64,000 nt of DNA from Phreatobacter aquaticus (lineage in GTDB: Bacteria > Pseudomonadota > Alphaproteobacteria > Rhizobiales > Phreatobacteraceae): assembly GCF_005160265.1 (NCBI RefSeq), contig NZ_CP039865.1, positions 1,388,828 through 1,452,827 on the forward strand, read 5' to 3'. The translations under genes were made by a program, and so were the position numbers. This document shows, piece by piece, positions 126 to 12,510 of this stretch. The notes beneath the pieces were generated by a model. The model was given only the letters and a program-made list of their open reading frames with translations, was not told the DNA's origin and made no database searches. Position 1 is the first letter of the stretch, and each line of letters starts with the position of its first letter.

Positions 126-1508
126 CTATTTCAGCACCGAGGGCAGCCAGAGCGCGATGCCTGGCCAGTACATCAGGATGCCGATGGCGGCGATATAGAC
201 GATCATGAAGGGCATGACGCCGGAGAACACATCCGATATCGGTCCGCCGTCCTTGCGCATGCCCTGCAGCACATAGAGGACCGTGCCGTCCGGTGGCGAG
301 ATCAGCGCGATCTCCACCAGCATGGTCACGATGACGCCGAACCAGATCGGATCGTAGCCGAGCGCCACCACGACGGGGAAGATCACGGGGATCGTCGTCA
401 CGATCATGGAGAAGCCCTCCATGAACGTGCCGAGCGCCAGGTAGAAGCCGATGATCATCAGCATGATCGCCCAGGGCGGCAGCGGCATCTCGGAGACGAG
501 CTTGGCCAGCGCCTGCGGCACGCCGAGATTGGTGAAGACGAAGTTCAGCACATAGGCGCCGAACAGGATGAGCCCGATCATCGCCGTGTTGCGGGCGGTC
601 GCCTCGGCGCTGTCATTGAGCATCTTCCAGGACAGCTTGCCGCCAAGTCCCGCCAGCACGATCGAGGCGACGACGCCCAGCGCCGCCGATTCCGTCGGGG
701 TCGCAAGGCCGCCATAAATCGTGCCGAGTACAATGAAGATGAGGAGGGCCGTCGGCGCGAGGTCGACAAGGCTCATCATCTTCTCGCGCATCGAATAGCG
801 CGGCGCATCGGGGTCGCGCGGTGCGGCGGTCCTGGCCTTGAGGAGGATCACCAGCGTGAACAGGACCACGACCAGGATGCTCGGGCCGACGGCGGCATTG
901 TAGAGCGCGCCGACCGATGTCTCGGTGATCAGGCCGTAGATGATGAAGGTGATGCCTGGCGGAATGAGATTGCCGAGCGCGCCGCCTGCGGCGAGCGATC
1001 CCAGCACCATTTTCGGGTCATAGGCGCGGCCCTTGAAGAAGGGGAGCGCCACCGAGCCCATGGTGGCGGCGGTGGCCACCGACGAGCCGGAGATCGCCGA
1101 GAACACGGCGGAGGAGGCGATGTTGGTGTGCAGGAGTCCGCCCGGAACGCGCGACAGCCAGACATTCAGGGTCCGGTAGAGCCGGTCGGAGAGGCCGGCG
1201 CGCAGGAGGATCTCGCCCATCAGCAGGAACAGCGGAACGGCGATCAGCACGAAGGACGAGGACGGATTCCAGATCGTCTGCCCGAGGAAATTCCAGAAGG
1301 CGCGGCCGTCGGAAAAGGCATAGCCGACGATCAGGCCGAGCACGCCAAGGGCCGCGCCGACATAGATGCCCATGCCGAAGAACACGGCGAACAGGCCGAC
1401 CAGCAGCAGGATCTCGCCGATCAGATGGGAGGCAACGGTGACCGCGCCGGTGAGCGAGAGGCCGACGAGCGTTGCCGCAAGGACCAGCAGGAAGACGATG
1501 GCGATCAC
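126..1508 (-). CDS. dctM: TRAP transporter large permease DctM
   Basis: This is a 460-residue, strongly hydrophobic polytopic inner-membrane protein with about a dozen membrane segments. It carries family-typical stretches such as GSSVATAATMGSVALP (around residue 140) and GIALISPPDGTVLY-like segments near the C-terminus. DctM is the ion-coupled translocation subunit of tripartite ATP-independent periplasmic transporters. Its ATG overlaps the dctQ stop by 4 bases, so the two are translationally coupled. It is the last gene of the dctP-dctQ-dctM set. The substrate cannot be read from this subunit; the neighbouring hydro-lyase and cupin suggest a small carboxylate. Confidence 0.95.
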   Translation of the reverse strand: MIAIVFLLVLAATLVGLSLTGAVTVASHLIGEILLLVGLFAVFFGMGIYVGAALGVLGLIVGYAFSDGRAFWNFLGQTIWNPSSSFVLIAVPLFLLMGEILLRAGLSDRLYRTLNVWLSRVPGGLLHTNIASSAVFSAISGSSVATAATMGSVALPFFKGRAYDPKMVLGSLAAGGALGNLIPPGITFIIYGLITETSVGALYNAAVGPSILVVVLFTLVILLKARTAAPRDPDAPRYSMREKMMSLVDLAPTALLIFIVLGTIYGGLATPTESAALGVVASIVLAGLGGKLSWKMLNDSAEATARNTAMIGLILFGAYVLNFVFTNLGVPQALAKLVSEMPLPPWAIMLMIIGFYLALGTFMEGFSMIVTTIPVIFPVVVALGYDPIWFGVIVTMLVEIALISPPDGTVLYVLQGMRKDGGPISDVFSGVMPFMIVYIAAIGILMYWPGIALWLPSVLK

Positions 1509-8387: not shown

Positions 8388-9281
8388 GTGTCCGTCCTCG
8401 AGCGCATGTCATCCCTGTTCGGGCGCAAGCCGGCCGCCACCGCGCGTCCCGTGGTCGATGACGATTGGCTGGTTCGCGTCATGTCGGAGGAGGTCGCGGC
8501 GCTCGACGAGCCGCCGCCGGCCCCCGTTGCGCAGGACCAGCTCGAACCGCGCTCCGGCCATGGCGTGCTGGGCGTCCATGGCGTGTGGAAGAGCTATAAG
8601 GGCCGCGCGGTCGCGCGCGGCGTCAGCCTCGACGTCCGGCGTGGCGAGGCGGTCGGCCTGCTGGGGCCGAACGGCGCCGGCAAGACCACCGTCTTCTACA
8701 TGATCACCGGGCTCGTGGAGGCCGACAAGGGCCGCATCGAGCTCGACGGCCACGACATCACCGCGCTGCCCATGTACCGGCGCGCCCGGCTCGGCATCGG
8801 CTACCTGCCGCAGGAGGCCTCGATCTTTCGCGGCCTCAATGTCGAGGACAATATCCGCGCCGTGCTCGAGGTCACCGAGCCCGACAAGAAGAAGCGCGAA
8901 GCCGAGCTCGACGAGCTCCTGGAGGAGTTTCACATCACCCGGCTGCGCAAGAGCCCGGCGATTGCGCTGTCGGGCGGTGAGCGCCGCCGTCTCGAGATCG
9001 CCCGCGCGCTGGCGACCCGGCCGTCCTTCATGCTGCTCGACGAGCCCTTCGCCGGCATCGATCCGATCGCCGTCGGGGACATCCAGAACCTCGTCCGCCA
9101 CCTCAAGGAGCGCGGCATCGGCGTGCTGATCACCGACCACAATGTCCGTGAGACGCTGGGCCTGATCGATCGCGCCTACATCATCCATTCCGGCCAGGTG
9201 CTGATGGAAGGCACGCCCGACGAGATCGTCGCCAACCCGGATGTCCGCCGCCTCTATCTCGGTGAAGAATTCCGCCTTTGA
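8388..9281 (+). CDS. lptB: LPS export ABC transporter ATP-binding protein LptB
   Basis: The ATPase of the LptB2FG LPS extractor. Walker A GPNGAGKTT (about residues 93-101), the Q-loop region YLPQEASIF, the signature LSGGERRR, Walker B FMLLDEPFAGID and the H-loop TDHNV are all intact. It carries an N-terminal extension of about 50 residues before the ATPase domain, which the 241-residue E. coli enzyme lacks. The GTG at 8388 lies 10 bases after an AGGA; the ATG at 8406 is the alternative. It begins 13 bases after lptA. Confidence 0.94.
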   Translation: MSVLERMSSLFGRKPAATARPVVDDDWLVRVMSEEVAALDEPPPAPVAQDQLEPRSGHGVLGVHGVWKSYKGRAVARGVSLDVRRGEAVGLLGPNGAGKTTVFYMITGLVEADKGRIELDGHDITALPMYRRARLGIGYLPQEASIFRGLNVEDNIRAVLEVTEPDKKKREAELDELLEEFHITRLRKSPAIALSGGERRRLEIARALATRPSFMLLDEPFAGIDPIAVGDIQNLVRHLKERGIGVLITDHNVRETLGLIDRAYIIHSGQVLMEGTPDEIVANPDVRRLYLGEEFRL

Positions 9282-9324
9282 CGTCAGGGCAAGGGCCGGC
9301 TTAACCTCATGGTCACCGGTCGCA

Positions 9325-9340
9325 TGGCATGAACCTTGCT
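9325..9340 (+). promoter_or_regulatory. sigma-54 (-24/-12) promoter upstream of rpoN
   Basis: TGGCATGAACCTTGCT matches the RpoN consensus TGGCACG-N4-TTGCW at all but one conserved position, and has the obligatory GG-N10-GC spacing (GG at 9326-9327, GC at 9338-9339). Transcription would start near 9350, about 50 bases before the rpoN ATG. This implies that rpoN is autoregulated, as reported for some other rhizobia. Confidence 0.65.
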
Positions 9341-9400
9341 AACCGCGGCGCTCCTGACTAATCATCGGAGCGTCGTCCATCTCGCGGCGCAAGGAACCCG

Positions 9401-10930
9401 ATGGCCCTGTCTGCACGATTAGAGCTTCGCGTCGGCCAGTCTCTGGTCATGACGCCCCAGCTCATGCAGGCCATCAAGCTGCTGCAGCTGTCCAATCTCG
9501 ACCTCGTTGCCTATGTCGAGGCCGAGCTTGAGAAGAACCCGCTGCTGGAGCGAGCCGAACCGGCGGCCGATCTGCCCGCCGAGCCGGAAGGCCAGACCAT
9601 CTCGATCGGCGAGGGCGATGCCCAGGCCGGCGACTGGCTCAACCGCGATATCGGCGAGACCCGCACCCAGATCGAGGAGCGTCTCGGCACCGACCTGGAG
9701 AACGTCTTCCCCGACGACAAGGGACCCGAGGTGAAGCACGCCGACGCGGCGGCCGATCCGATGACCTCGTCCTGGTCGAATGTCGGCTCCGGCGGCCGCG
9801 ACGACGATGACTACAATCTGGAAGCCTTCCTCTCCGCGGATCTGTCGCTGGTCGACCACCTGTCGGAACAGCTGGCTCTGGCGGTCGAGCATCCGGGCGA
9901 CCGGCTGATCGGCCAGATGCTGATCGATTCCGTCGATGATTCCGGCTACCTCACCACCACGGTCGAGGATGTCGCCGAGCGTCTTGGCGCGGAAGTCGCC
10001 GATGTCGAGGCGGTGCTGGAAGTGATCCAGAGCTTCGAACCCTCGGGCGTGGCCGCCCGCAATCTTGCCGAATGCCTGGCCATCCAGCTCAAGGAAAAGG
10101 ACCGCTACGACCCCGCGATGCGCGTGCTGGTGGCCCATCTCGATATGCTGGCCAAGCGCGATTTCGCCGGGCTGAAGCGTCTCTGCCAGGTCGACGACGA
10201 GGATCTGGCCGACATGGTCGGCGAGATCCGCCGGCTCAACCCCAAGCCCGGCCTCGCCTTCGGCTTCGCGCCGATCCAGCCCCTGGTGCCCGATGTCATG
10301 GTGCGCGCCGGCCCGGATGGCGGCTGGCTGGTGGAGCTGAACACCGAGACGCTCCCCAAGGTTCTGGTCAACCAGAGCTATTACGCCAAGGTCTCGAAGA
10401 CGGCGAAGAAGGACACCGAGAAGACCTTCCTCGCCGAGGCCATGCAGACGGCGACCTGGCTCACCCGCGCGCTCGACCAGCGCGCCCGCACCATCCTGAA
10501 AGTGGCCACCGAGATCGTCCGCCAGCAGGACGCCTTTTTCGCGCTGGGCGTCCAGTATCTCCGCCCGCTGAACCTCAAGACGATCGCTGACGCCATCAGC
10601 ATGCACGAATCTACCGTGTCGCGGGTGACCTCCAACAAGTCGATCGCCACCAGCCGCGGTATTTTCGAGATGAAGTACTTCTTCACCTCGTCGATCGCGA
10701 GCTCCGAGATCGGTGGCGAGAGCCATTCGGCGGAAGCCGTGCGCTTCCGCATCAAGCAGATGATCGATGCCGAGACGCCGGACGACGTGCTGTCCGATGA
10801 CGCGATCATGGACAAGCTGAAGGATTCCGGCATCGACATTGCCCGGCGTACCGTTGCCAAATATCGCGAGGCGCTGCGCATTCCTTCTTCGGTCCAGCGT
10901 CGGCGCGAGAAGCAGGCCATGGCCGGCTGA
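9401..10930 (+). CDS. rpoN: RNA polymerase sigma-54 factor RpoN
   Basis: A full-length 509-residue sigma-54. Region I is the Gln/Leu-rich N-terminus (LVMTPQLMQAIKLLQLSN, residues about 16-33) that contacts enhancer-binding proteins. It is followed by an acidic region II, the core-binding domain and the DNA-binding domain. The RpoN box ARRTVAKYRE occupies residues 481-490. It directs transcription from -24/-12 promoters when activated by AAA+ enhancer-binding proteins. A clear AAGGAA precedes the ATG. It follows lptB in the usual order, but hpf and ptsN, which commonly follow rpoN, are absent here. Confidence 0.97.
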   Translation: MALSARLELRVGQSLVMTPQLMQAIKLLQLSNLDLVAYVEAELEKNPLLERAEPAADLPAEPEGQTISIGEGDAQAGDWLNRDIGETRTQIEERLGTDLENVFPDDKGPEVKHADAAADPMTSSWSNVGSGGRDDDDYNLEAFLSADLSLVDHLSEQLALAVEHPGDRLIGQMLIDSVDDSGYLTTTVEDVAERLGAEVADVEAVLEVIQSFEPSGVAARNLAECLAIQLKEKDRYDPAMRVLVAHLDMLAKRDFAGLKRLCQVDDEDLADMVGEIRRLNPKPGLAFGFAPIQPLVPDVMVRAGPDGGWLVELNTETLPKVLVNQSYYAKVSKTAKKDTEKTFLAEAMQTATWLTRALDQRARTILKVATEIVRQQDAFFALGVQYLRPLNLKTIADAISMHESTVSRVTSNKSIATSRGIFEMKYFFTSSIASSEIGGESHSAEAVRFRIKQMIDAETPDDVLSDDAIMDKLKDSGIDIARRTVAKYREALRIPSSVQRRREKQAMAG

Positions 10931-11028: not shown

Positions 11029-12510
11029 ATGACATTGGCAATGAGCTGGAGCGAATGGGCCGCCCATGACGCGACCGCGCTGGCGGACCGTGTCCGCGCC
11101 GGCGAGATCAGTCCGGCCGAGCTTGCAGCCCAGACCAAGGCGGCTGTCGCCGGGCTGAACCCGGCGCTCGATGCCGTCGTCGAGCTCTTCGAGGATGTCA
11201 TCGCCGATCCCCTGAAGGACGGCATGAACCCCGACGGCACCTTTGCCGGCGTGCCCTATCTGATGAAGGACCTCGGTCCCACCCTGAAGGGCCGGCTGCA
11301 GGAAATGGGCTCGTTCCTGATGCAGGGCAACAAGCCGCAGGCCGACAGCCACCTGACGGCCAAGATCCGCTCCGCCGGCCTCAACATCATCGGCCGCTCG
11401 ACCACACCTGAATTCGGCGTCTGCTCCTCGGCCGAGAATCCGGCCTTGTTCACCACCCGCAATCCCTGGAACCTCGACTACACCACCTGCGGCTCCTCGG
11501 CCGGTTCGGCGGCGATGGTTGCTGCCGGCGCGACCCCGATCTCCCACGGCACCGATGGCGGCGGCTCGATCCGCATTCCCGCAGGCGTCAATGGCCTGAT
11601 CGGCCTGAAGCCCTCCCGCGGCGTGTTCTCCATCGCACCCGGCGGGTCGGATCTTTCCAGCGTCGTCTCCTCGCAGGGCTGCCTGACACGCTCGGTGCGC
11701 GACACCGCCGCCTTCGTGGATGCGTGCCGTGGCGGCGCGCCAGGCGAGTTCATGCCCTACTGGACCGCACCGGAGCCCTATGCCGAGCTTGTGAAGCGTG
11801 ACCCCGGCCGCCTGCGCATCGCGCTGTCGCACGAATGGGGCGACAACCGCGCCACCCCGCACATCGTTTCCGAACTGGAGCGCGCCGGGCGTTTCCTCGA
11901 AGGCCTCGGCCATCACGTTGACTGGGCAAAGCCCGCCATCGACTACGCTGCCGCCTATCAGGCGCAAACCACCTGCTACATCACCAACTTTGCCCAGACG
12001 ATCGCGCTGCTGCTGGAGCCGCGCGGGATCACCAGGCCGCCGGAGGATCTGGTGGAGCCGATCAACATCCGCCTCTGGGAGGCCGGCATCAACGCCAGCT
12101 ATTCCGAGCGCACGCGGATGCAGATGGCGTTCAACACGACATCGCGCGGCTTCGGCGCCTTCTTCGAGGACTGGGACATCATCCTCACCCCCACCATCGC
12201 CAAGCCGACGCCGAAAATCGGCACGACCGAATACCTGACGGTGAGCGACAATCCCTCCGTCCACGACTGGTTCGCCAATCTCTGGCAGATCTTCGCCTAT
12301 ACGCCGCTCTCCAACCTCACCGGCATTCCCGGCCTGTCCATGCCGTTCGGCCGGCAGGAAAACGGCCTGCCCATGGGCATCCAGGCGCAGACGCGCCAGG
12401 CCGGCGACGGCCTGCTGCTGCAGCTGGCGGCTCAGGTCGAGCGGGCGCTGGACGGCAAGTGGAATGGCGGCGAGAAGCCTTCAAACCACGTCACGCGGCT
12501 GGCTGCGTGA
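11029..12510 (+). CDS. amidase, amidase-signature family
   Basis: A 493-residue hydrolase of the amidase-signature superfamily. The Ser-cisSer-Lys triad is recognisable as K80 (YLMKDLG), S156 (CGSSAGS) and S180 (DGGGSIRIPAG). The 76- and 24-residue spacings match characterised members. It hydrolyses a carboxamide to acid and ammonia; the substrate is not predictable. It lies 98 bases after rpoN, in the place where hpf/ptsN are commonly found, and its stop is 4 bases from the convergent proB stop. The ATG at 11041 is an alternative start. Confidence 0.92.
   Translation: MTLAMSWSEWAAHDATALADRVRAGEISPAELAAQTKAAVAGLNPALDAVVELFEDVIADPLKDGMNPDGTFAGVPYLMKDLGPTLKGRLQEMGSFLMQGNKPQADSHLTAKIRSAGLNIIGRSTTPEFGVCSSAENPALFTTRNPWNLDYTTCGSSAGSAAMVAAGATPISHGTDGGGSIRIPAGVNGLIGLKPSRGVFSIAPGGSDLSSVVSSQGCLTRSVRDTAAFVDACRGGAPGEFMPYWTAPEPYAELVKRDPGRLRIALSHEWGDNRATPHIVSELERAGRFLEGLGHHVDWAKPAIDYAAAYQAQTTCYITNFAQTIALLLEPRGITRPPEDLVEPINIRLWEAGINASYSERTRMQMAFNTTSRGFGAFFEDWDIILTPTIAKPTPKIGTTEYLTVSDNPSVHDWFANLWQIFAYTPLSNLTGIPGLSMPFGRQENGLPMGIQAQTRQAGDGLLLQLAAQVERALDGKWNGGEKPSNHVTRLAA

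Follow-up and report, generated by a model that had tools for sequence, protein, structure and literature searches.

Results

Genes and candidate element in the lptB-rpoN gap

The window (the whole 64,000-nucleotide stretch of Phreatobacter aquaticus DNA analysed here) carries rpoN, the gene for RNA polymerase factor sigma-54 (509 aa), at 9401..10930 on the plus strand. Upstream on the same strand lies lptB (8388..9281, start codon uncertain), which encodes the LPS export ATP-binding protein. Both assignments, made earlier from the sequence, hold up against NF004596 (rpoN, 765 bits) and TIGR04406 (lptB, 379.6 bits with a cut-off of 240). The window genome has a single rpoN, located behind lptB, and 119 bases separate the two genes. 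The next large ORF 3′ of rpoN, on the same strand at 11029-12510, is amidase-like, its best NCBIfam match lying below the cut-off. The genes hpf and ptsN, which we take to be neighbours of rpoN in other rhizobia, were not seen downstream of rpoN in the window's ORF listing.

On the plus strand of the gap, facing rpoN, we find a sigma-54-type -24/-12 element, TGGCATGAACCTTGCT, at 9325..9340. Its GG (9326-9327) and GC (9338-9339) are ten bases apart and belong to a TGGCAY-type and a TTGC-type box, respectively. The element ends 60 bases 5′ of the rpoN ATG (9401), which leaves room for a leader; by the usual -24/-12 numbering, transcription would presumably start near 9351. The preliminary description was correct in the sequence of this element, its position, its GG-N10-GC spacing, its distance from rpoN and its location between lptB and rpoN.

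The same gap contains a conserved block, TTAAC-N6-GTCA (9301..9315, plus strand), a single inverted repeat (9346-9354 with 9367-9375) and, at 9336..9364 on the plus strand, the place of a sigma-70-like pair (TTGCT[AG], N16 or N18, TATGAT) that is present in 9 of the 12 congeners and has a poor -10 (TAATCA) in the window. No strict sigma-70 promoter or terminator was found at window positions 9200-9420.

Frequency alone is weak evidence for the element. Allowing up to two mismatches to the consensus, the window contains 16 matches compared to 25.9 expected from shuffles, which is not above chance. The strict pattern TGGCAYR-N4-TTGCW has five exact matches in the 4.97 Mb genome, the rpoN site included, and three in the backward control. 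We looked at two of the other exact sites of the window genome (L036 1501-1516 and L038 1501-1516): one lies shortly before a gene for a DctP-type TRAP binding protein (PF03480), the other 39 bases before the ATG of a gene whose product resembles, by eye, an ABC peptide-binding protein.

Conservation within Phreatobacter

Each of 12 Phreatobacter genomes has one RpoN match, the 11 others being 85-88% identical to that of the window. In the alignment of their upstream regions ATGGCATGAACCTTGCT is invariant in all 12, within an otherwise variable gap, so that the -24/-12 match sought at the same position in relatives is found throughout the genus sample. No stretch of the aligned gap is invariant over more columns than the one at the motif, which spans 17; in 10,000 column shuffles the maximum is 9. 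A total of 31 of the 137 columns considered are invariant, comprising 16 of 16 within the motif and 15 of 121 outside it. A search of 297 genomes of the order for the exact 17-mer gave a single copy in each of the 12 Phreatobacter genomes and none in the remaining 285.

The block TTAAC-N6-GTCA is likewise invariant in 12 of 12 congeners. In one of them (L008) the distance between the block and the -24 box is longer by 12 bases, about one helical turn, and on account of this insertion the block is probably the site of a separate factor. Sites for IHF, PhoB, CtrA and EcfG were weighed only by eye against their consensus sequences, and none was adopted. Besides this block, no conserved enhancer-like block was seen in the 140 aligned upstream bases of the 12 congeners.

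The element is kept where lptB does not adjoin rpoN

The end of lptB was not found directly 5′ of rpoN in 4 of the 12 Phreatobacter loci (L002, L004, L008 and L011) or in any of the five loci of family f50. All of these loci retain the element, which indicates that it goes with rpoN.

In the two of these Phreatobacter loci that were inspected, L002 and L011, lptB and rpoN are separated by an ORF of about 147-149 aa that is oriented away from rpoN (L002, 872-1321, minus strand; L011, 3210-3653, plus strand). In the one f50 locus inspected (L014), a uracil phosphoribosyltransferase gene (634-1278, minus strand) adjoins rpoN and is also oriented away. With such neighbours, read-through from lptB is not available and rpoN needs its own promoter in these loci. 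The intervening ORF of L002 is SnoaL-like (Pfam), and a SnoaL-like ORF is probably to be expected in L004 and L008 too.

Recurrence across the order

We sampled 123 rpoN upstream regions of 39 other families, taken from 188 matching genomes of the order outside the genus. They comprise the 23 best matches and 100 loci hand-picked for family spread and for a match from residue 1; the latter were chosen before their own motifs, but after those of the first 23, had been seen. The loci in these order-wide counts are related to one another and not independent. Under a strict rule (GG and TTGC required, at least 9 of 12 for the consensus score), 53 loci have the element in reverse orientation and 20 in forward orientation, with 2 having both, 71 either and 52 none. 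Mononucleotide shuffles give a mean of about 1.6 per strand and a largest value of 5. By family, reverse matches occur in 16 of 39, forward matches in 6, either in 19 and no match in 20.

A score of at least 10 of 12 within the last 200 bases is reached in reverse orientation by 38 and in forward orientation by 21 of the 123 loci. The controls are far lower: dinucleotide shuffles have means of 1.6 (reverse) and 1.95 (forward) with a largest value of 4, the backward pattern gives 5 and 4, and lptB coding sequence gives 3 and 0. At a score of 9 the separation is poor (57 reverse and 30 forward loci vs 41 and 22 in the backward controls).

The spacing of the two boxes is fixed. When TGG[CT][AC][CT][AG] was followed by TTGC at varying distance, N4 accounted for 13 forward and 40 reverse loci; spacers N1-N3, N5 and N6 did not occur, and N7 and N8 occurred in at most 3 per strand. 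The motif also emerges from an unseeded search. For this purpose gaps were cut at the lptB stop, the end of lptB being found in 121 of 135 loci, and 106 gaps from 36 families were used. Expectation maximization (EM) from random-word starts returned the same motif, with TGG and TTGC as its high-information parts, in 7 of the 8 best runs.

Outside the order, 40 alphaproteobacterial loci (of 65 matched genomes, chosen among those with a match starting at residues 1-5) yielded no forward and one reverse match, compared to 0 and 2 in the backward control. The sole reverse match is in L286, one of four loci of this set (with L285, L289 and L310) in which the start codon is approximate. Taken as a sequence pattern, the element looks like a feature of the order, present in about half of the sampled families.

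We counted 12 copies of the reverse form TGGTCCG-N4-TTGCT in 16 genomes; 10 stand at rpoN. The backward control gave 21 matches. The idea that this form is a general promoter type in the 16 genomes is unsupported by these numbers. The two copies away from rpoN (G045:C1:721524 and G150:C17:501275) are identical (TGGTCCGCTTCTTGCT) and possibly represent the same locus in two genomes.

Orientation of the element

Forward elements are found in Phreatobacter, in families f50, f33 and f6 (where the motif search finds it in 4 of 4 loci and the stricter rule in 2 of 4) and in 4 of 5 loci of f21. The reverse orientation is found in f11, f13, f16, f23, f24, f27, f34, f35 (4 of 5), f41, f42, f43, f45 and f49, as well as in one locus each of f21, f22 and f44. 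A weaker forward match, alone or in addition, is present in two loci of f35 and one of f44.

A maximum-likelihood tree built from 75 RpoN proteins (midpoint root; labels given mostly by family, the exceptions being L016, L247 and L260) requires four changes of the forward label, of which the starred branches force at least two. Phreatobacter and f50 are sisters on this tree (97/90).

We also scored 79 loci with named species among 80 listed matches, omitting L135, which has no start; two of the 79 are congeners already counted and the remainder may overlap the 123. When GG, GC and a score of 9 or more out of 12 are required, a reverse match occurs in 64 of the 79 loci scored among the matches listed, and in every listed locus titled Bradyrhizobium, Afipia, Rhodopseudomonas or Pseudolabrys. 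Some of these matches are marginal, for example that at -181 in Blastochloris and those ending TGTGCA in Pseudorhodoplanes. The reverse element is absent from all eight Ancylobacter loci (L118, L120, L124, L129, L138, L142, L144 and L148), whereas related genera have it; A. defluvii has a weak forward match. A forward match is found alongside in 14 of the 79 loci, and in the Bradyrhizobium cases it lies about 18 bases before the ATG. In L030 and other Bradyrhizobium, the reverse element pairs with this weaker forward copy by the ATG as an inverted repeat, which can fold into an RNA hairpin (L030, z -3.4).

Discussion

A probable site for sigma-54 at its own gene

Conservation of sequence and spacing leads us to regard the element before rpoN, with high confidence, as a genuine sigma-54 recognition element. 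In 16 of the 39 other families it faces away from rpoN in at least one locus, so that binding is a more probable common function than transcription into the gene. The preliminary description had proposed that rpoN carries its own sigma-54 promoter and had predicted a feedback loop. A forward element is indeed present in the window, and autoregulation through a sigma-54 site is likely, given a conserved sigma-54-type element that travels with rpoN; promoter activity toward rpoN is the part that fits the relatives less well.

We propose that sigma-54 RNA polymerase would dock at the element as an inactive closed complex. The docked complex would hinder sigma-70 polymerase at the rpoN start, with the consequence that more RpoN would mean less rpoN transcription. 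In Phreatobacter, docking would compete with a sigma-70-like promoter whose -35 box is the TTGCT of the element itself in 9 of 12 genomes. Where an active enhancer-binding protein is present, the same docked complex might also fire toward rpoN, and the Phreatobacter element could act as a firing promoter as well, given the five strong matches to enhancer-binding proteins in the window genome (below).

On balance, we favour the view that RpoN recognizes this element and controls its own gene from there by docking and occlusion, and we judge a net negative feedback of RpoN on rpoN to be, by a little, the better bet. The older role of the element is probably docking with negative feedback by occlusion, as suggested by the literature on E. 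coli and rhizobia together with the changes of orientation.

A broader version would make the element an orientation-free operator across the order: RpoN would act as its own repressor at an element placed at the sigma-70 start, more commonly on the opposite strand, and this role would have been kept through several flips. We hold this version tentatively, at somewhat less than even chances, which we lowered slightly on account of the half of the families lacking the element and of the absence of sigma-70 enrichment at forward loci (below).

Alternative explanations

The element could instead be an ordinary forward sigma-54 promoter, activated by a bacterial enhancer-binding protein (bEBP), starting transcription at about 9351 and giving positive feedback; the reverse sites of relatives would then be a separate matter. 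We consider this possible, if rather doubtful. In its favour, the element points toward rpoN and fits the consensus well in all 12 congeners and in the sister family f50, and a survey takes predicted sigma-54 promoters as a sign that rpoN is autoregulated, in alphaproteobacteria too (PMC12316311). The bEBP search in the window genome gave five strong and two weak matches, the search being positive in all 14 control genomes too. Against it, no conserved enhancer block was seen in the 140 aligned bases beyond TTAAC-N6-GTCA, which is itself very near; across the order, reverse loci outnumber forward ones (53 vs 20).

It is improbable that the site belongs to another protein, or is mainly a sigma-70 promoter with TTGCT as its -35 box, and resembles a sigma-54 element by coincidence. 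We determined the best sigma-70-like pair in 260 bases with our own weights. In 9 of 12 Phreatobacter this pair is TTGCT[AG]-N16/18-TATGAT, the -12 box doubling as the -35; TATGAT is missing in the window genome, L009 and L010. This overlap, and the near confinement of the reverse variant to rpoN, would suit such an explanation. Yet a -35 box leaves the invariant TGGCATGAAC unexplained, and canonical variants with the same N4 spacer appear in both orientations in unrelated families.

The preferred reading of docking and occlusion involves the sigma-70 promoter as well, and we counted a -10 as adjacent when its end falls inside the element by no more than 2 bases or lies within 30 bases upstream. 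A -10 is adjacent in 26 of 52 reverse loci, compared to a mean of 11.4 and a largest value of 23 among 500 in the swap control and to 8.6 in the uniform control. For forward loci there is no enrichment (6 of 31 vs a control of 4.5), and four of the six belong to f33.

Could a structured 5′ leader RNA account for the conservation? Hairpins do lie over the element in several reverse-type loci (L030, as above; L032, z -6.0), but many of the 38 loci folded have no unusual stability against mononucleotide shuffles, there is no Rfam match at 9200-9500, and the forward element of the genus lies outside the one inverted repeat of the gap. We rejected an RNA hairpin as the main explanation on the folding of these 38 loci and the Rfam result, and consider a leader RNA very improbable. 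A chance match, for which one could cite only that loose matches across the window do not exceed shuffles, is refuted, unless the alignment is wrong, by a motif that does not vary among the 12 congeners and that recurs across the order, and we give it practically no weight.

Relation to known systems

Autoregulation of rpoN in rhizobia, mentioned in the preliminary description, is in print: a citing paper states that rpoN of R. leguminosarum is negatively autoregulated (PMC3538637). As in our case, this is a chromosomal rpoN in the same order; it is said to be under negative control of its own product, as we propose here. The passage concerned names no site, and positions are not comparable. 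According to the same paper, growth of an M. loti rpoN1 mutant was restored when a plasmid supplied the gene together with 118 bases of upstream sequence, which suggests a promoter nearby, although the vector could contribute (PMC3538637). In prxS-rpoN2 of M. loti and R. etli, it describes a NifA-driven sigma-54 promoter that drives an rpoN gene, a likeness to the possible forward promoter at the locus studied here; that gene, however, is a second, symbiotic copy behind prxS, while the window genome has its one rpoN behind lptB (PMC3538637).

For the mechanism, the closest parallel comes from E. coli, where sigma-54 holoenzyme represses sigma-70 promoters with a footprint overlapping its site (PMC4551910). 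Competition was demonstrated in vitro with the four promoters that were tested; C at -12 is retained in the sites that repress (PMC4551910). The likeness would be that a sigma-54 site overlapping the footprint of a sigma-70 promoter lowers transcription; the difference, as far as the text of that study considered here goes, is that the E. coli sites are other than rpoN and that the mechanism was tested in vitro there and is inferred here. Intragenic bound sigma-54 is no roadblock in E. coli according to another study, which in the part considered cites earlier repression at overlapping promoters (PMC4591121).

The 2025 survey reports an excess of rpoN (COG1508) among genes with a predicted sigma-54 promoter in several classes, the alphaproteobacteria being one of them (PMC12316311). 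The survey reads this as autoregulated transcription, and its relevant sections give neither a reverse-facing site nor a footprint.

A phrase search of the literature on rpoN autoregulation returned no match, and a limited literature search gave no description of a reverse-facing sigma-54 site at rpoN. A reverse site for a single species may already have been described in the older rhizobial literature on rpoN promoters.

What our comparison adds is a candidate site for the negative autoregulation of rpoN, the prior literature that we found stating the effect and, in the passages concerned, naming no site. Where a sigma-54 promoter is predicted upstream of rpoN, positive feedback does not necessarily follow. 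If our reading is true, this would be a sigma-54 site conserved for repression or silence and not for transcription. With an element of this kind upstream of rpoN, as seen in many families of the order and in Bradyrhizobium, and facing away from the gene more often than toward it, these bacteria would have a simple mechanism for setting the level of RpoN.
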